Assembly: GCF_008087625.1 (NCBI RefSeq)
Contig: NZ_CP042997.1
Span: forward strand, 6,572,001 to 6,636,000
Reading direction: 5' to 3'
Length of the DNA stretch: 64,000 nt
Source: Aquisphaera giovannonii
GTDB lineage: Bacteria; Planctomycetota; Planctomycetia; Isosphaerales; Isosphaeraceae
Both the position numbers and the translations under genes were made by a program. Within the stretch, counting starts at the first letter, position 1; the number at the start of each line of letters is the position of its first letter. The notes under the pieces are model-generated. The model saw only the letters and a list, made by a program, of their open reading frames with translations. It did no database searches and had not been told where the DNA came from. Shown here piece by piece: positions 54,376 to 62,309 of this stretch.

Positions 54376-54401
54376 TCGGCATCCATCAGGCCGTTGACAG
54401 G

Positions 54402-54435
54402 ACGACCCGGACCTACCATCGTAGGCCCGGGTCGT
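54402..54435 (+). terminator. hairpin terminator after the sugar transferase gene
   Basis: Arms 54402-54416 (ACGACCCGGACCTAC) and 54421-54435 (GTAGGCCCGGGTCGT) pair over 15 positions with one mismatch around a CATC loop. A weak T-rich stretch (TGTGTTG) follows, so this is terminator-like but not a perfect intrinsic terminator. Confidence 0.65.
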
Positions 54436-54537
54436 TGTGTTGACGCCCCCCGCCGGAATTTCCCCACGCCGGCCCTGTCTTGCCCGCCCTGGATCGGCCT
54501 CACCAGGCGATTGCCCCTCTCGGATGGAGTGCCCCGC

Positions 54538-55434
54538 GTGAGCGTCACGGCAGCCCTCATCGATGGCAAGGCGCTCGCCGACCGCGTGCGCCGGCGGGTG
54601 ACGGATGAGGTCGCCCTGTTGCGGGCGAGGTCCGGCATCGTCCCGGGATTGTCCGTCGTGCTCGTGGGGGACGACCCGGCCAGCCACGTCTATGTCCGGA
54701 ACAAGCAGAACGCCAGCAGGGCTGCGGGCATGACCGGGGAGACGCTCCGGCTGCCGGCCGATATCAGCCAGGCGGAGCTGCTCGCGACGATCGACCGCCT
54801 GAACGCCGATCGGTCGGTGCACGGGATCCTCGTGCAGCTCCCGCTGCCCCGCGGGCTGGACGAGCGGTCCGTGATCGAGCGCATCGACTCGCTCAAGGAT
54901 GTGGACGGGCTCCATCCGAGCAACGCGGGGCTCCTCGCCCAGGGGAATCCCCGGTTCGTCCCCTGCACGCCGCTCGGCGTCCGCGAGCTGCTGATCGACG
55001 CGAAGGTCCCGACGAGGGGGGCCCACGCCGTCGTGCTCGGCCGCTCCCAGCTCGTCGGCAAGCCGATGGCGCTCCTGCTCATGCAGAAGGGGGAAGGGGG
55101 CGACGCCACGGTGACCGTCTGCCACACGGCGACGAAGGCCCCCGCGGCCATCGCCAGGCAGGCCGACATCCTGATCGTGGCGATGGGCCGCCCCGAGGCG
55201 GTGACCGCGGACTGGGTCAAGCCCGGCGCGGTGGTCATCGACGTGGGCATTCACCGCCGCGGCGACGGCTCGCTGTGCGGGGACGTCGATTTCGCGGGCG
55301 TCGCCCCGGTCGCGTCCCGGATCACCCCCGTGCCGGGCGGCGTCGGGCCGATGACCGTGGCCATGCTCCTGAAGAACACCCTGCTGGCCGCGACGCTGGC
55401 CGCCGGAGGGCCCGCGTCCGGCCCGAACGCGTGA
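54538..55434 (+). CDS. folD: bifunctional methylenetetrahydrofolate dehydrogenase / methenyltetrahydrofolate cyclohydrolase
   Basis: A 298-residue FolD of normal length. It interconverts 5,10-methylene-THF, 5,10-methenyl-THF and 10-formyl-THF with NADP+. Conserved elements visible: SHVYVRNKQ (catalytic Lys), HGILVQLPLP, DVDGLHPSN, VLGRSQLVGKP (Rossmann loop), DVGIHRRGDGSLCGDVDF and TPVPGGVGPMTVAML. The start is taken as the GTG at 54538, since the fold starts at once (VTAALIDGKALA); an open frame extends upstream across the terminator-like hairpin. The isomerase-like gene follows after 10 bases. Confidence 0.95.
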   Translation: MSVTAALIDGKALADRVRRRVTDEVALLRARSGIVPGLSVVLVGDDPASHVYVRNKQNASRAAGMTGETLRLPADISQAELLATIDRLNADRSVHGILVQLPLPRGLDERSVIERIDSLKDVDGLHPSNAGLLAQGNPRFVPCTPLGVRELLIDAKVPTRGAHAVVLGRSQLVGKPMALLLMQKGEGGDATVTVCHTATKAPAAIARQADILIVAMGRPEAVTADWVKPGAVVIDVGIHRRGDGSLCGDVDFAGVAPVASRITPVPGGVGPMTVAMLLKNTLLAATLAAGGPASGPNA

Positions 55435-55444
55435 GGGCCTCTCC

Positions 55445-56281
55445 ATGATCCGCCTGGGGATCTGCAACGAGCTCTTCGAAGGCTGGGACATCGAGGCGGT
55501 CTGCCGGACCGTCAAGGGGCTGGGATACGACGGCCTCGAGATCGCCCCGTTCACGCTGGCGCCGCGGATCGACGAGCTCCCGGCCGACCGCAGGCGAGAG
55601 CTCAGGACGATCGTGGAGGACAGCGGGCTGGAGACGATCGGGCTCCACTGGCTGCTCGCCAGGACGGAGGGCTTCTACCTGACCTCGCCCGATCCCCTCG
55701 TCAGGCAGCGGACGGGCGAATACCTGCTCCGGCTGGCCGAAGCGACACGCGACCTCGGAGGCTCCCTCATGGTCCTCGGCTCGCCGAAGCAGCGCGACCT
55801 GCTGCCCGGCGTCGGCCTCGACGAGGCGACCCGGTACGCCCTCGAGGTCTTTCGCCGGATCATGCCCAGCATCGCCGGCATGGGCATCGACCTCTGCTTC
55901 GAGCCGCTCGCGCCCTCCGAGACGAACTTCATCAACACCTGCGCGCAGGCCATGGAGCTCGTCCGGCAGGTCGGCCAGCCGCGGTTCAAGCTCCACATGG
56001 ACGTGAAGGCCCAGAGCGGCGAGGCCGGGACGACCGTGCCCGACCTGATCCGACGCTACGCCCGCGACGCGGGCCACTTCCACGCCCAGGACGTGAACCT
56101 GCGCGGGCCCGGCATGGGGGACGTGGATTTCCGGCCGATCATGCGGGCCCTCGTCGAATCGGGATATGACCGCTGGGTGTCGGTCGAGGTGTTCGATTTC
56201 TCGCCGGGGGCCGAGGAGACGGCGCGACAGAGCGTCGCGTGCCTCCGCGAGTCGCTGAAGGCCGCGACGGCGGGCGCCTGA
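55445..56281 (+). CDS. sugar phosphate isomerase/epimerase family (xylose isomerase-like TIM barrel) protein
   Basis: A 278-residue TIM-barrel protein of the AP_endonuc_2 family. Pattern segments include GYDGLEIAPFTL, IGLHWLLART, GIDLCFEPLAPSETNF (metal-binding Glu), FKLHMDVKAQ (metal ligand region) and HFHAQDVNLRGPGMGDVDF. WVSVEVFDFSPG ends the barrel. Members isomerise or epimerise ketoses or act on inositol derivatives; the exact substrate is open. It lies 10 bases after folD, probably in one transcript. The ISKra4-like element is inserted 31 bases after its stop. Confidence 0.85.
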   Translation: MIRLGICNELFEGWDIEAVCRTVKGLGYDGLEIAPFTLAPRIDELPADRRRELRTIVEDSGLETIGLHWLLARTEGFYLTSPDPLVRQRTGEYLLRLAEATRDLGGSLMVLGSPKQRDLLPGVGLDEATRYALEVFRRIMPSIAGMGIDLCFEPLAPSETNFINTCAQAMELVRQVGQPRFKLHMDVKAQSGEAGTTVPDLIRRYARDAGHFHAQDVNLRGPGMGDVDFRPIMRALVESGYDRWVSVEVFDFSPGAEETARQSVACLRESLKAATAGA

Positions 56282-56321
56282 CGCCGGGGCCCTCGCGATC
56301 CCGCCATCACGCGGGTGCACG

Positions 56322-57626
56322 TCAGCTTCTGATTTTCTTGCGCGTTAATCTGGGCGCTCGTGGCCGGCGAGTGAAGGGACAGCCCGGACGTGTCTCGAGG
56401 TGCGCCTCCAGCCGTTCGTCGTCCGAGAGCGCCGCGGCGCGCACCTGGAGGATGGCCTCGGCCCCCTCCGGGTCGTTCCAGAACATCTCGGTCCCCTTGA
56501 CCCGGTAGTTCACCTCCTTGACGAGCGACTCCATCCAGGCCGTCGTCACCGGCAGCCCGCTCCGGCGATATTCGGGATATCTCATGCGCCCTTCGTTGTT
56601 GCTCAGGTAGGTGATCGTCACGGCCAGGACCTTCCGCGGGTCCTGATCCGGCGCGGTCGCGGGCGGCTCGCCCAGCTTCGCCCGCCAGGCCTGCAACTCC
56701 TCGATCACCTGGCCGACCTCCCCTCGCCATGCGCCTCGCATCCAGGCCAGGTACCGGTCCCACGCGTCCTCGGGCCCCTCGTGCACGGCCTTGGCCACCA
56801 GGAACAGGTAGCTCAGCACGTGGATGAAGTCGAGGATCGGCGTAAACTCGCCGAAGTGCCGCTTCCGGATCGACCAGTTCCACGCCAGCCCATCGCCCAG
56901 GAACGCCTTGGCTGACGCCTCGGGGAATCGCCGCCGCTTGGCTTCCCGCGCCATCTGCTTGCCGAACTCCTTCGAGTCCGCCATGCTGCTCAGCACGGTG
57001 CGCACCGACCGCTTCGGCCGCCAGTCGGCCGGCGGCACCATCTCCATGCCCTCGGGGGGCTCGCCGGCCCGCGATGGCGACTCGGGCGGCGAGGCCATGG
57101 AGGCGACCGACAGGGCTTCGGTCTCGGCGATCTTGGCCACGTGCTCCGGGTCGGCGAAGCAGGCCGGCGGCTCGGGCTCGGGGTCTTCCTCGGAGGTCGT
57201 GGGCCGGGCCCGGATCAGGCAGGCGTTCTTGGTCTCTCGCCACCCCTCGGATGTGCGGTGGACGCCGGGGCCGTGTCCCGGCTCGCGGGTGCGGATCCGG
57301 CCGCCGTCGCATTCGACCACCGCCAGCGCCGGCGGGCCCTCGGGGCGCCGTGCCAGCGAGTCATCGGTCCTGGGATCGGCGTCCCGACGTCGGGCCAGCT
57401 CGAGGCCGACGTCGCGCACCACGCGCTCGATGGTCTTGGCCGAGACGGGCTGGCCGGCCACCTGCTTCATCACGATGGCGGCCCGCTTGAACGAGCGGGC
57501 CTCGGCTCCGGCGTAGGTGAGCCGTCGCACGAGGGTCGGGGTCAAGGCCCGAGCATCAAGGCCCAGCGCCTCCCGGAGGGGGGAAAAACCCGCGGCGACA
57601 GCGGGGGCAATGACCCATCGGCTCAT
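56322..57626 (-). CDS. ISKra4-like transposase, DDE catalytic frame
   Basis: A 434-codon frame, the C-terminal part of the transposase. Acidic residues of a DDE triad are visible: VVECDGGRIR (D), FLGDGLAWNWSI (D) and, near the C-terminus, TTAWMESLVKEVNYRVKGTE (E). It has no ribosome site of its own near its 5' end. It overlaps the upstream zinc-ribbon frame by 71 bases and shares a T5C6 run at 57578-57588, where a +1 (or -2) change of frame joins the two. The product would be about 540 residues. Either programmed shift/slippage or a disabling indel explains the break. Confidence 0.85.
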   Translation of the reverse strand: MSRWVIAPAVAAGFSPLREALGLDARALTPTLVRRLTYAGAEARSFKRAAIVMKQVAGQPVSAKTIERVVRDVGLELARRRDADPRTDDSLARRPEGPPALAVVECDGGRIRTREPGHGPGVHRTSEGWRETKNACLIRARPTTSEEDPEPEPPACFADPEHVAKIAETEALSVASMASPPESPSRAGEPPEGMEMVPPADWRPKRSVRTVLSSMADSKEFGKQMAREAKRRRFPEASAKAFLGDGLAWNWSIRKRHFGEFTPILDFIHVLSYLFLVAKAVHEGPEDAWDRYLAWMRGAWRGEVGQVIEELQAWRAKLGEPPATAPDQDPRKVLAVTITYLSNNEGRMRYPEYRRSGLPVTTAWMESLVKEVNYRVKGTEMFWNDPEGAEAILQVRAAALSDDERLEAHLETRPGCPFTRRPRAPRLTRKKIRS

Positions 57627-57927
57627 CGAAGTCCAGGGGGCCGTCTATCGAAGTGACGGAGCGACTCCTGGGGACGACCTCGCAGCGGGTGCCGCACTCG
57701 GGGCACTTGACCGAGCGGGTCGCGTGCGAGGCCAGCTCCCCCATGTGACGGGCTTGCACCGTACGGCTGAGCCGCCGCCCCAGCTCGTGGGCACGGGCTT
57801 CGATGACCGAGTAGTGGGGGATGCCCACCACCGTGCCGTCGGCCCGATCGAGGGCCACGGCGATGCGTGCCGCCTCCTTCAGGAGTTGGTCCAATCTCGC
57901 CTGAAGTTCGGCCATCGTCCCATCCAT
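57556..57927 (-). CDS. ISKra4-like transposase, N-terminal zinc-ribbon frame
   Basis: A 123-codon frame starting at ATG 57927. The first ~50 residues are helical; then VKCPECGTRCEV and HCPRCRRGFFPPPG form a four-cysteine zinc ribbon. The second cysteine pair is followed directly by the T5C6 run where reading must shift to the DDE frame. In one-frame relatives the sequence FFP continues straight into the next domain, as it does here after the shift. Confidence 0.82.
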   Translation of the reverse strand: MDGTMAELQARLDQLLKEAARIAVALDRADGTVVGIPHYSVIEARAHELGRRLSRTVQARHMGELASHATRSVKCPECGTRCEVVPRSRSVTSIDGPLDFDEPMGHCPRCRRGFFPPPGGAGP

Positions 57928-58238
57928 GGATCGGCCTCCGCCGGGGTAGATCGGGCCTCCAAAGCACCGAAGGGCCGCACTCTACCACGGAACCACCGCG
58001 TTCCTCCATTGACATCCTCGTCCTCGCAGTAGAAGGCGCAGAAGCTGACGTGCACCCCCATCACGCGCCGACACGCCGATTGCCCTGTTCAAGTTCCGCC
58101 GACCTGCTATCCTCCGCGCGCCGAGTTCCCATCCACCCGGGGGATCGGTGTCACGTCTCTAAGGACCCCGGGGGCGGCGAAGACTGGATTTGCGCGGAAC
58201 CGTCGACACGGACGCGTCCGCCAAGGAGGAGGTACACC

Positions 58239-59243
58239 GTGGCGGCCCATAGCCGATCGGACGGGAGAGTACGAAGTCGCCCCGTCATGGAGGCGCTGGA
58301 GGGGCGGACTGTCCTGTCGACCTTCAAGGCCTCCAACATAGGCGAGCTCGTAGCGGACATCGCCCATGCGGCGCAGACCCCCGGCGCCAATACCATCCTG
58401 CTGTCGTCCGGCAATTACGTCGCCCCCCAGTCGATCCAGATCCGCGGCGTCCAGAACCTGACCATCGCGCCCGCCAAGGCGGGCGCGACGGTGAACCTCA
58501 TCGGCGGCGTGACCGATCGGGTCCTCACCATCGACGGCGGCGACGTGACCCTGAAAGGTCTGAACATCTCGAACGGGGGCGGGGCCCTCGGCGCGGGCAT
58601 CGGCGCCCGGAACGCCAATCTGACCCTGGACAACGTGCGCGTCTTCGACAACGTCGCCACGAGCGCGGCCGGGGGCGTTTACGTGCAGGGCGGCTCGCTC
58701 AACCTCAGGAACAGCTCGATCCTGAACAACCGCGTCGGCCATGCCACCGGATCCACCGGCGGCGGGCTCGTGGCGGTCGACGCGGCCACGCAGATCAGCA
58801 GCTCGGTCATCAACCAGAACTCCGTCTTCGCCGTGGACCTGACTTCCGGCAAGGCGACGACCGGCGTGGGGGCCGGGATCTACACGAGCGGGGGGACGCT
58901 GAACGTCGCCAAATCGACGATCTCGCAGAACGTCATCAGCTCCAGCTCCATCGGCCCCACGACCACCGCCCTCGGGGGCGGCGTCTACACGGCGAACACC
59001 GCGGCGACCGTGTCCGGGTCCACGATCAGCAACAACGGGCTCTCCACGTTCTCCACGAGCACGGCGAACGCCCAGGGCTCGGCCTTCGCCACCTCCGGCG
59101 GCAGCCTCGCGGTGACGAGCAGCACGATCACGAAGAACGGACCGGGCGGCTGGCGATCGTTCTGGAACCGGAATGCGACGGTCACGCTGACCAATAGCAC
59201 GCTGGACGGCCAGAGGATCTCCGGGACCCGGAACGTGACGTAG
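58239..59243 (+). CDS. secreted beta-helix surface protein with LEGRxxLS N-terminal motif
   Basis: A 334-residue protein from the GTG at 58239, which has the strongest ribosome site of the window (AAGGAGGAGG, 6 bases upstream). Residues 20-27, LEGRTVLS, match the planctomycete-type N-terminal LEPR/LEGRxxLS motif found on secreted proteins. The rest is a right-handed parallel beta-helix: about ten turns of Asn/Gly/Ser/Thr-rich strands such as VTLKGLNISNGGGALG, SLNLRNSSILNN and GTLNVAKSTISQN. No membrane segment or catalytic residues of a pectate lyase are evident; it may bind polysaccharide or other surface material. The ISKra4-like element lies about 180 bases upstream and may affect its promoter. 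Confidence 0.85.
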   Translation: MAAHSRSDGRVRSRPVMEALEGRTVLSTFKASNIGELVADIAHAAQTPGANTILLSSGNYVAPQSIQIRGVQNLTIAPAKAGATVNLIGGVTDRVLTIDGGDVTLKGLNISNGGGALGAGIGARNANLTLDNVRVFDNVATSAAGGVYVQGGSLNLRNSSILNNRVGHATGSTGGGLVAVDAATQISSSVINQNSVFAVDLTSGKATTGVGAGIYTSGGTLNVAKSTISQNVISSSSIGPTTTALGGGVYTANTAATVSGSTISNNGLSTFSTSTANAQGSAFATSGGSLAVTSSTITKNGPGGWRSFWNRNATVTLTNSTLDGQRISGTRNVT

Positions 59244-59426
59244 ACGCCGCGTGCGCGACGTGGACGCCACGCGTGGCACGCGACTCGAACGCAGACTCCG
59301 ACGACCTCCGCGAGGCGGGGCGACGCCCGCTCGCCTTGCCGCCACCCCCGGTTCGTCTTAGGATGAATCGCCGGGCCTCCAGGCCCCGGCCGGTGGGTTG
59401 CGGTGAAGTCCTCGAGGAGTTTGCTC

Positions 59427-62309
59427 ATGCGTCCCGGACCTCTCTTTCGCGTTCCAGGCGCCTGCCTAGCCGCCCTCCTGGTGCCCGCCCTGGGGCTCAT
59501 GGCCCCGGCCAAGCCGGCCTGCGCGGCCGACGAGCCCGCCCGGCCCGCCCAGAAGGACAGCTCCCCGCGCGCCCGGCCCAGGGACGTCACGCTCAGCCTG
59601 GCGGTCGAGCCCGCGGAGGCGAAGCCCGGGCAGACCGTCACCCTCAAGGTGACGGCGAAGCTTAATCCCGGCTGGCACATCTACACGTACGCGAAGAAGC
59701 AGGAGGGGGACGGGCCGCGGAACACGCTCTTCGACCTCTTCGGCCCGGCCGGGCTGGAGATCGCGGGGCCCTGGAAGGCTTCCAAGGAGGCGGAATCCCA
59801 CGCCGAGCCCGCCTTCGAGAACAAGGTGTTCTCCTACTACGAGGATGAGGTCACCTGGAGCCTGCCCCTGAAGGTCCCCGCCGACGCGGCCGCGGGGAAG
59901 AAGCAGATCCGCCTCCAGGCCAGCTACCAGATCTGCAACGCCGAGAGCTGCAGCTTCCCCGGGCGCTGGACCCTGCCCGCGGCCACGCTCACCGTGCTCC
60001 CGAGAGGATCGACGCCGGCCGGCGAGGTGCGCCGGGATCTCCGGAGCCCGCTGGATGCGGCCCTGTACGCGAGCCTGACCGGCCTGGTCCAGGGCGACGC
60101 CGGCAAATCGCCCGCCCCCGCCCCGAAGAAGAAGGACGTCGGCGTCCGCCTCCGCCCCAAGGGCATGACCGTCAAGGCCGCCGTCGAGCCGGCCGAGGCG
60201 AGGCCGGGTGCCACGGTCACGTACAAGGCGACGGTCGAGCTGGAAGAAGGCCTGCACATCTACGCGATGGCGAAGGGGGAGGCGGCAGAGGACGGGCCGG
60301 TCCCGACCACCTTCGACTTCTTCGATCCCGGGGGCCTGAAGATCGAGGGGACGTGGAAGCCCGAGCGGGACCCCGAGGTGCGTCCGGATCCGACCCAGGA
60401 CAATAAGATTGTCGAGTCCTTCGAGCACTCGGTGACGTGGAGCATCCCCCTCGTCGTGCCGGCCGACGCCGCCCCGGGGAAGAGGATCCTGCGATGCCAG
60501 ATCGGGTATCAGGTCTGCAATGACAAGTTCTGCTTCCCGATCGGTCAATGGACCCTGCCCGATGTGGTCCTGAACGTCTCCGGCGAGGGGGGCAACGCCG
60601 CCGCAGTCGCGGCCGCGACGCCGCCCGCGCCGGCCCAGGTGGCACCGTCCCCGCCGGCGACGGGCGAGCCCGCCCCTTCTTCCACGCCGGCCTCGCCCGC
60701 CAGCTCGACGGCCCCGACCGCGGTACCGGCCCAGCCGGCGAGCCCGGAGGCGTCGGTCCGTTCTTCTGGCGAGGGTGAGAAGGGCGAGGCGACGCTGAGC
60801 GAGATCGCCCGGAAGAAGAACGAGGGCCTCATCCCGTTCCTGCTGGCCTCGGCGCTCGGCGGGCTCTTCGCCCTGGTGATGCCCTGCGTTTGGCCGATGG
60901 TGCCCGTGACGGTCAACTTCTTCGTGAAGCAGGGGCAGTCTAAGACCTCGGGCGGGAAGGCGACCGAGCTGGCCATCACGTATTGCCTGGCGATCATCGG
61001 CATCTTCACGGCGGTCGGCGTGCTCTGCTCCTTCCTCTTCTCGTCCTCCTTCCTCCAGACGCTGGCGAACAATCCCTGGCTCAACCTGACGGTGGCCGCG
61101 GTCTTCCTCGGCTTCGGCCTGAGCCTGCTGGGCCTGTTCGAGATCCGGCTGCCGAGCTTCCTCCTCAATGCGTCGGCACGCGGGGAGAGCCGCGGCGGAT
61201 TGGTCGGCGTGATCTTCATGGCGCTGACGCTCACGATCACGTCGTTCACCTGCACCTTCCCGGTGGTGGGCGGCCTGCTCGTCATGGCGGCCGGCGGCGA
61301 CTTCCTCTATCCCATCCTCGGCCTCGCAACGTTCGCGACCGTGCTCGCCCTGCCGTTCTTCGTGCTGGCCCTCAGCCCGGGCTTGCTCGCCAGAATGCCC
61401 CGCAGCGGCGACTGGATGAACACGGTGAAAGTCGTCGGCGGCCTGATCGAGATCGGCGCGGCGCTCAAGTTCCTGAACACCGCGGAGATCGCCTGGGTCA
61501 CGCCGGAGAATGCCTTCTTCGACGCGCAGGTCGTCCTCTCGGCCTGGATCGTCCTGTCCGCGGTCTGCGGGCTGTACCTGCTGGGCGTCTTCCAGACGGA
61601 CCACGATTACGAGGAGGTGAAGATCGGGGCCTTGCGCATGGTCATCGCCTCGGTGTTCCTGGGCATGGCCCTCTACATGGCCCCGGCGCTCTTCGGCCGG
61701 CCGCCCCAGGGCTTCATCTGGGACCGTCTCATCGTCGGCATCCTGCCGCCCGACTCGTCCGAGTTCGAGCCCAGGCCGGCCCAGCTCATCGCGGGAGGCG
61801 GAACCGCACCGGCCGGCGAGGTGAAGGCGTCCTCCCCCGACCCCGCCCAGGCCGAACGCGAGCAGAAGAGCTTCCACGGCGTGGCGTGGGGAATGAGCCT
61901 GGAGCAGGCGAAGGAGCAGGCGGCCCAGCAGAAGAAGCCGATCCTCATCGACTTCACGGGCGTGAACTGCGCCAACTGCCGGCTCATGGAGAAGAGCGTC
62001 CTCCCCCGCGCCGACGTCGTGACACGCCTCAGGGAGTTCGTGACGGTCCAGCTCTACACCGACCGCGTGCCCATCAACTCGATCACCGCGGCACAGCGGC
62101 AGGAGCTCGCGGAGAGGAATCAGGAGCGACAGCTCGACCTGACGCAGGAGGCGACGAACCCGTTCTACGTCGTGATGACGCCCGAAGGGAAGGTCGTCGC
62201 GACGATGGGCGGCTACAACGAGCCCAAGGCCTTCGTCGACTTCCTGACGAACGCCCTGGAGAAGTCGCGAGACGCGGCGAAGGTCGCCCAGGCGTCTCCG
62301 GGCCGCTGA
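59427..62309 (+). CDS. DsbD-like protein-disulfide reductase with two N-terminal domains
   Basis: A 960-residue transmembrane electron-transfer protein. After a signal peptide come two tandem DsbD alpha-like domains (~residues 45-195 and ~245-385), with cysteine pairs in YQICNAESCSFP and YQVCNDKFCFP. A Pro/Ala/Ser-rich linker leads to a DsbD-type core of about eight helices with C487 (MPCVWPMVPV) and C609 (TSFTCTFPVVGG). A C-terminal thioredoxin domain has CANC at 848-851 (FTGVNCANCRLMEK). Such proteins pass electrons from cytoplasmic thioredoxin to periplasmic thiols. The ATG at 59427 (GAGGAG 8 bases upstream) is preferred to the GTG at 59403. E. coli DsbD has one N-terminal domain, so the duplication is unusual. 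Confidence 0.9.
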   Translation: MRPGPLFRVPGACLAALLVPALGLMAPAKPACAADEPARPAQKDSSPRARPRDVTLSLAVEPAEAKPGQTVTLKVTAKLNPGWHIYTYAKKQEGDGPRNTLFDLFGPAGLEIAGPWKASKEAESHAEPAFENKVFSYYEDEVTWSLPLKVPADAAAGKKQIRLQASYQICNAESCSFPGRWTLPAATLTVLPRGSTPAGEVRRDLRSPLDAALYASLTGLVQGDAGKSPAPAPKKKDVGVRLRPKGMTVKAAVEPAEARPGATVTYKATVELEEGLHIYAMAKGEAAEDGPVPTTFDFFDPGGLKIEGTWKPERDPEVRPDPTQDNKIVESFEHSVTWSIPLVVPADAAPGKRILRCQIGYQVCNDKFCFPIGQWTLPDVVLNVSGEGGNAAAVAAATPPAPAQVAPSPPATGEPAPSSTPASPASSTAPTAVPAQPASPEASVRSSGEGEKGEATLSEIARKKNEGLIPFLLASALGGLFALVMPCVWPMVPVTVNFFVKQGQSKTSGGKATELAITYCLAIIGIFTAVGVLCSFLFSSSFLQTLANNPWLNLTVAAVFLGFGLSLLGLFEIRLPSFLLNASARGESRGGLVGVIFMALTLTITSFTCTFPVVGGLLVMAAGGDFLYPILGLATFATVLALPFFVLALSPGLLARMPRSGDWMNTVKVVGGLIEIGAALKFLNTAEIAWVTPENAFFDAQVVLSAWIVLSAVCGLYLLGVFQTDHDYEEVKIGALRMVIASVFLGMALYMAPALFGRPPQGFIWDRLIVGILPPDSSEFEPRPAQLIAGGGTAPAGEVKASSPDPAQAEREQKSFHGVAWGMSLEQAKEQAAQQKKPILIDFTGVNCANCRLMEKSVLPRADVVTRLREFVTVQLYTDRVPINSITAAQRQELAERNQERQLDLTQEATNPFYVVMTPEGKVVATMGGYNEPKAFVDFLTNALEKSRDAAKVAQASPGR

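Follow-up and report, generated by a model that had tools for sequence, protein, structure and literature searches.

The locus raises one question. An insertion sequence (IS) with perfect ends carries its transposase gene in two reading frames, and the break may be either a chance indel in a young copy or a programmed change of frame made by the ribosome or by the RNA polymerase. The element lies in the window, the whole stretch of 64,000 nucleotides of Aquisphaera giovannonii DNA that was analysed, and feature positions are given in window coordinates.

Structure of the element

The boundaries of the element are as follows.

56313-58057, minus strand (leftward transcription): complete ISKra4-like IS, 1745 bp
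56304-56312, no strand: left copy of the target-site duplication, CCATCACGC, 9 bp
58058-58066, no strand: right copy of the target-site duplication, CCATCACGC, 9 bp
56313-56331, plus strand: terminal inverted repeat past the 3' end of the transposase, 19 bp
58039-58057, minus strand: terminal inverted repeat ahead of the 5' end of the transposase, 19 bp

The terminal repeats, GGGTGCACGTCAGCTTCTG and CAGAAGCTGACGTGCACCC, are complementary at 100% of their 19 bp, and the same 9 bp stand on either side of the element; the perfect ends and the duplication reported in the first-pass annotation are thus both present. The available part of PMC3942029 gives inverted repeats of 18-39 bp and duplications of 8-9 bp for the ISKra4 / p-MULT 4 family, the latter also for the p-MULT 4 superfamily, and both lengths found here fall inside these ranges.

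The transposase is encoded by two overlapping frames.

57556-57927, minus strand: ORF A, read in frame 0, 123 aa with a zinc ribbon (CPEC...CPRC), predicted to be made on its own as a short product
57578-57588, minus strand: slip site TTTTTCCCCCC, frame-0 codons TTT TTC CCC CCT; a message one base shorter enters the B frame
56322-57578, minus strand: ORF B, DDE catalytic part; read from the slip onward it has 418 aa plus a stop and starts LREALGLDAR
57306-57308, minus strand: putative catalytic Asp 1 (ECDGG), retained in 43 of 44 long B relatives
56892-56894, minus strand: putative catalytic Asp 2 (LGDGL), retained in 44 of 44 long B relatives
56529-56531, minus strand: putative catalytic Glu (WMESL), retained in 44 of 44 long B relatives

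As first annotated, the two frames meet at TTTTTCCCCCC (57588-57578 on the minus strand, with T5 at 57588-57584 and C6 at 57583-57578), and ORF B, with its stop at 56322, is offset by +1 relative to ORF A. The end of ORF A, stop codon included, lies 22 nt past the last C; measured from the first T the distance is 33 nt, which makes the earlier figure of about 30 bases a fair one. The sequence TTTTTCCCCC is found once in the window against 0.06 times expected from shuffles.

Of three families compared with ORF B, ISKra4 (model NF033572) scores best (E 1.1e-47; 163 bits, under the cut-off of 205), and it is also the best model for ORF A (E 2.8e-7; 30 bits, under the same cut-off of 205). All zinc-ribbon Pfam matches of ORF A are below the Pfam cut-offs, and a sequence search of the PDB gave a single match at E 0.29, put down to chance. 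An AlphaFold model of ORF B (pLDDT 80.7) has its best structural match in the ISCth4 transposase (Z 13.5, rmsd 4.8, 275 aligned), the next unrelated structures having Z of about 10. ISCth4 is an IS256-type Mutator-like IS, and ORF B is predicted from the model to have a Mutator-like DDE fold. The two Asp and the Glu are presumably catalytic, a role assigned by analogy.

The IS is placed between genes. The neighbours in 54394-62309 are a FolD-like tetrahydrofolate dehydrogenase/cyclohydrolase, a xylose-isomerase-like TIM barrel and a DsbD-like protein with a thioredoxin domain. An ORF at 58239-59243 (probable start GTG at 58239) begins about 180 bp past the end of the IS, which is transcribed away from it. 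Its product has MEALEGRTVLS near the N-terminus and resembles a beta-helix surface protein by eye; a Pfam search of the longer ORF 57867-59243 gave no match. Some ISKra4 elements are reported to insert upstream of promoters.

Copies in the host genome

The A. giovannonii genome (10.5 Mb, 3 contigs) contains seven near-identical copies, each of 1745 bp. The 19 bp inverted repeats are perfect in six of them, with one mismatch in the seventh (L007), and the target duplication is 9 bp in six and 8 bp in one. Only six variable columns were found in the alignment of the seven, none of them at the slip site. An eighth copy (L008/L057, genome positions 7010532-7012082) has 74% identity.

The other copies had been named at the outset as the place where an uninterrupted frame might be found. 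None was: all eight, the 7/7 near-identical copies as well as the diverged one, have T5C6 with the same +1 offset. The genome has eight T5C6 sites altogether, every one inside this IS, while the reversed pattern, used as a control, occurs four times. The eighth copy retains its T5C6 site but carries a TAG inside ORF B, and is therefore decaying.

The host genome is 99.94% complete and no close uninterrupted copy was found in it. It does have an unsplit, distantly related ISKra4 element (sharing 24% identity with the B part of L014, one of the relatives), with at least 15 full-length copies (L103-L117) and open frames of 498-513 aa above the family cut-off. In the two of these that were read, L103 and L117, the zinc ribbon runs on as CPRCREGHCPAD... 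with neither FFP nor a frame change.

The split in related elements

Planctomycete genomes were searched for relatives and the regions fetched, which gave 64 distinct junctions with both halves placed automatically. Loci without a detectable A or B start were excluded before counting, and L031 gave no match. Several fetched rows were repeats of one place (L144, for example, repeats L093), and counts are of distinct junctions. Phe-Phe-Pro stands in frame 0 at the break in 57/64 junctions, with an offset of +1 in 53, 0 in two and +2 in two. The remaining seven lack the motif and are at +1 (L021, L093, L132), 0 (L133) or +2 (L060, L136, L148). L012, read by hand and outside the 64, has one frame across a T7C2 site and a B part broken further on. 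A later-fetched set of 11 new junctions, ten of them at +1, was drawn from groups overlapping the first and is a repeat, not an independent test.

In a tree of 59 rows the +1 state is found throughout a 53-row part (46 rows at +1 with the motif, two at +1 without it, three at +2 and two at 0), the 0 and +2 states being scattered tips. The tree came from a quick search with long outgroup branches, the outgroup not being on one side of any branch, and its use is restricted to the spread of the +1 state through this part. Changes of run length are seen in L133 (T4C6) and L073 (T5C8), which are in one frame, and in L088 (T5C4), which is two bases off. From their sequences L073 and L133 look like natural run-length repairs, and the run may be a replication hot spot.

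Both ORF A and ORF B are under purifying selection. dN/dS for ORF A is 0.07-0.63 in seven of eight pairs (three of these on just 39-50 codons), the eighth being saturated, and for ORF B 0.09-0.38 in all eight. Split elements are multi-copy in several planctomycete genomes, which indicates that the split form moves. The +1 split junctions known here are from Planctomycetota. Among viral contigs, 18 stretches fit a pattern and none was a relative; the ISKra4-like matches from plasmid searches (19, 3 and 14 records) were distant and cyanobacterial, and the seven records inspected of the 19 had no +1 junction.

Sequence of the slip site

The codon and hairpin analyses are based on the 53 motif junctions at +1. 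TTT encodes the first Phe in 52 of these, where 13.7 are expected from the elements' own usage, and CCC encodes the Pro in all 53, where 18.1 are expected; for the second Phe, 28 junctions use TTT and 25 use TTC. The codon after CCC is TCA, CCT or CCA in 41 junctions and a stop in none.

The commonest run types are T7C3 (23), T5C6 (14), T6C4 (4) and T5C5 (3), and the rarer ones T6C6 (3), T7C5 (2), T8C3 (2) and T6C5 (1), so that T5C5 or T5C6 is found in 17/53 junctions. One junction (L067, TTC TTC CCC) has no T-run. The composition of the run is variable and its total of T and C is 10, 11 or 12 nt in 52/53, which suggests a length constraint. The RNA-DNA hybrid is 9-10 bp long according to the available part of PMC5009743.

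The choice that the first-pass annotation had left between programmed frameshifting or slippage and a chance indel resolves clearly: the split is programmed, because it is shared by 8/8 genome copies, is at +1 in 53/57 motif junctions and has a codon choice far from background.

A hairpin directly upstream of the T-run

The junction has a further feature, absent from the first-pass annotation.

57589-57605, minus strand: terminator-like hairpin, CCCGC-TGTCGCC-GCGGG, with a 5 bp stem that abuts the T-run, overlying the second CxxC codons

In the window this hairpin is a modest one, with 5 bp and about -8 kcal/mol. It is unexceptional against synonymous recodings (z 0.0; dinucleotide z -1.09), and is the sole site in a terminator scan of 56200-58200, where 0.6 are expected by chance. 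Of the 53 junctions, 51 have a hairpin that stops 0-2 nt short of the T-run and 50 have one of at least four pairs; for 50 of the 51 the base of the stem is 10-13 nt away from the last C. No anchored hairpin was found at the junctions of L015 and L142. The stems of relatives are often longer than that of the window, as in L045 (GTCCCGGC-TGTC-GCCGGGAC).

The energy of the anchored hairpin is -8.4 against -4.1 in synonymous recodings drawn from the elements' own codons (mean z -1.43 +- 0.14). At the control positions, comprising eight other upstream anchors and eight downstream windows (the latter scored by plain folding energy), mean z is -0.47 to +0.43. With sequences clustered at 60% protein identity, z is negative in 29/30 clusters, and the ten later-fetched +1 junctions have a mean z of -1.41. 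When the 30 nt upstream are scored by plain folding energy instead, the signal is weaker (mean z -0.95) than that of the anchored hairpin. Individually, 16/46 junctions had p <= 0.05 in a first run with an unfixed random seed; the recoding test was repeated with fixed seeds.

Among the T5-type sites (18), pairing is 83% in the register that abuts the run, against 31-60% in the 12 others, and TA and CG alternate at one pair of the stem. The 32 T7-type sites use several registers with no single dominant one, so that for them the hairpin is argued from the energy test. L147 and L145 have lost the CxxC here (bases read by eye), yet they have a stable hairpin at the T-run or one base before it, with z of about -3. 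The hairpin is therefore not simply a by-product of the zinc-ribbon codons.

Proposed mechanism and its alternatives

The transposase is likely to be produced through hairpin-dependent transcriptional slippage. The RNA of the zinc-ribbon codons would fold into a hairpin within the exit channel of the RNA polymerase while the 9-10 bp RNA-DNA hybrid spans the run of U and then C, which is U5C6 in the window and often U7C3 among the relatives. The hairpin would draw the RNA ahead by one template base, a forward shift that a single rU:dG wobble could tolerate, and one nucleotide would be omitted. Normal translation of the shortened message would fuse ORF A and ORF B into a full-length transposase with zinc ribbon and DDE part, and the unslipped message would give the 123-aa zinc-ribbon protein alone. 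From this we infer that the full-length transposase is rare and the short protein common. The latter is plausibly an inhibitor that binds the ends of the element, a restraint on transposition suggested by analogy with IS1 and IS3.

Held somewhat less firmly, though still probable, is the wider proposal that such slippage is ancestral to a whole clade of Mutator-superfamily ISs and their sole route to a transposase. U5C6 and U7C3 would have interchanged while the 10-13 nt from stem base to run end were kept, the same bases encoding the zinc ribbon and the hairpin that causes slipping.

The main rival is programmed +1 ribosomal frameshifting, in which peptidyl-tRNA-Pro on CCC would slip forward one base to CCN and into the B frame. 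The invariant CCC (53/53), the single direction in 53/57 junctions and L067, which has CCC with no T-run, all agree with it. Constant direction is taken as a mark of ribosomal frameshifting in the available part of PMC3711429; however, that criterion is apparently meant for A/T runs that slip both ways, and slippage of the T5C5 type is unidirectional by mechanism as described in the available part of PMC5009743. The conserved structure, moreover, is directly 5' of the site, where the ribosome would already have melted it. As to stimulators near the junction, no additional structure was found across the eight downstream windows and no conserved SD-like sequence by the site (3/53 junctions). The bias of the codon after CCC, never a stop, also tells against this rival, and a slip on CCC has no need of the near-fixed TTT or of a near-constant T+C length. 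The conserved hairpin beside the T-run favours transcriptional slippage over ribosomal shifting, and we infer that it is the polymerase that slips; ribosomal shifting is considered unlikely.

A start of ORF B of its own, by internal initiation or translational coupling, would make a frame change unneeded. In 27/53 junctions the 90 nt upstream contain some ATG, GTG or TTG in the B frame, a start-type codon lies 12 nt past the shift point, at a near-invariant Leu, in 18/53, and the window has an ATG at 57626. The other 26 junctions, however, lack a start codon over those 90 nt, the upstream positions show no conservation (the commonest is shared by 7/53) and ATG is used in just seven. As the run, the codon bias and the hairpin are also left unexplained, an independent start is very improbable.

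Slightly less credible again is a chance indel in defective copies that are mobilised in trans by an intact helper. The diverged eighth copy, with its stop inside B, does show that some copies decay, but the genome has no close uninterrupted copy, its unsplit ISKra4 element is only a far relative, the same offset runs through the 53-row part of the tree, and there is purifying selection. Phase variation, with replication slippage in the T/C run toggling copies over generations, has just as little to recommend it: it would fit the in-frame variants L133 and L073, but run length is the same in 7/7 young copies, the two to seven fetched copies of one element in each of six other genomes share identical junctions, and on the tree it is the out-of-frame state that is widespread. 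On the evidence of copies, relatives, tree and selection, an independent start, a chance indel with its helper and phase variation were thus set aside, leaving transcriptional slippage as the preferred explanation.

Comparison with known systems

IS1 and IS3 use -1 ribosomal frameshifting at A-rich sites and so make a rare fusion transposase next to a short protein that binds DNA. The products proposed here are of the same two kinds, but in IS1 and IS3 the shift is -1 and made by the ribosome.

Within the same superfamily, the available part of PMC3942029 describes the ISMich2 group of p-MULT 4 (Mutator-like) as having a two-ORF transposase, thought to be programmed, with -1 translational frameshifting. 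The two-ORF transposase and the presumed programmed frame change are common to both, whereas the change here is +1, one base being lost in the window and in 53/57 junctions, a comparison made by description only. That part of PMC3942029 describes neither a hairpin nor a T/C run for ISMich2. It is possible that ISMich2 and the planctomycete group are identical, or that the sign conventions differ.

IS1447 of the IS3 family resembles the present element in making an IS transposase by transcriptional slippage next to a predicted stem-loop, but it has an A7-A9 homopolymer and slips in both directions (PMC6211511, available part).

The closest parallel is the Roseiflexus IS630 element, for which stem-loop-mediated slippage at T5C5 is credited to Penno et al. 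2015 in the available parts of PMC5009743 and PMC6211511. A hairpin, GCGGGCgcaaGCCCGC, stands directly 5' of T5C5, and the RNA polymerase drops one C (U5C5 to U5C4, unidirectional), with no slippage outside this context and one rU:dG tolerated at most (PMC5009743, available part). The two systems share, as far as that account goes, the heteropolymeric T-then-C site, the hairpin directly 5' of it, the required loss of one base and a transposase as product. They differ in that the transposase families are unrelated, that the site is T5C6 here and often T7C3 in relatives, and that the hairpin here overlies zinc-ribbon codons and is kept across a planctomycete clade. Slippage in the Roseiflexus element was shown by experiment, whereas for the ISKra4-like element it is predicted from sequence. 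The slippage experiments known to us concern T5C5, and we know of none for U7C3, the commonest form here (23/53).

Gene callers that expect one open frame are likely to miss split transposases of this kind or to call them broken. The 57 natural junctions are a ready mutational series for run composition, stem and spacing. No earlier report of hairpin slippage in ISKra4-like elements was found among the titles and abstract openings listed, ISfinder/TnPedia and most subscription journals lying outside the scope of the search. The mechanism would be one already known, here in an unrelated IS family and apparently ancestral to a clade. Stem-loop-driven slippage on a heteropolymer rests so far, as far as found, on one IS; the ISKra4-like elements would, if the proposal is true, be a second, unrelated and clade-wide case beside the Roseiflexus IS630, and would make such slippage a recurrent means of metering transposase.
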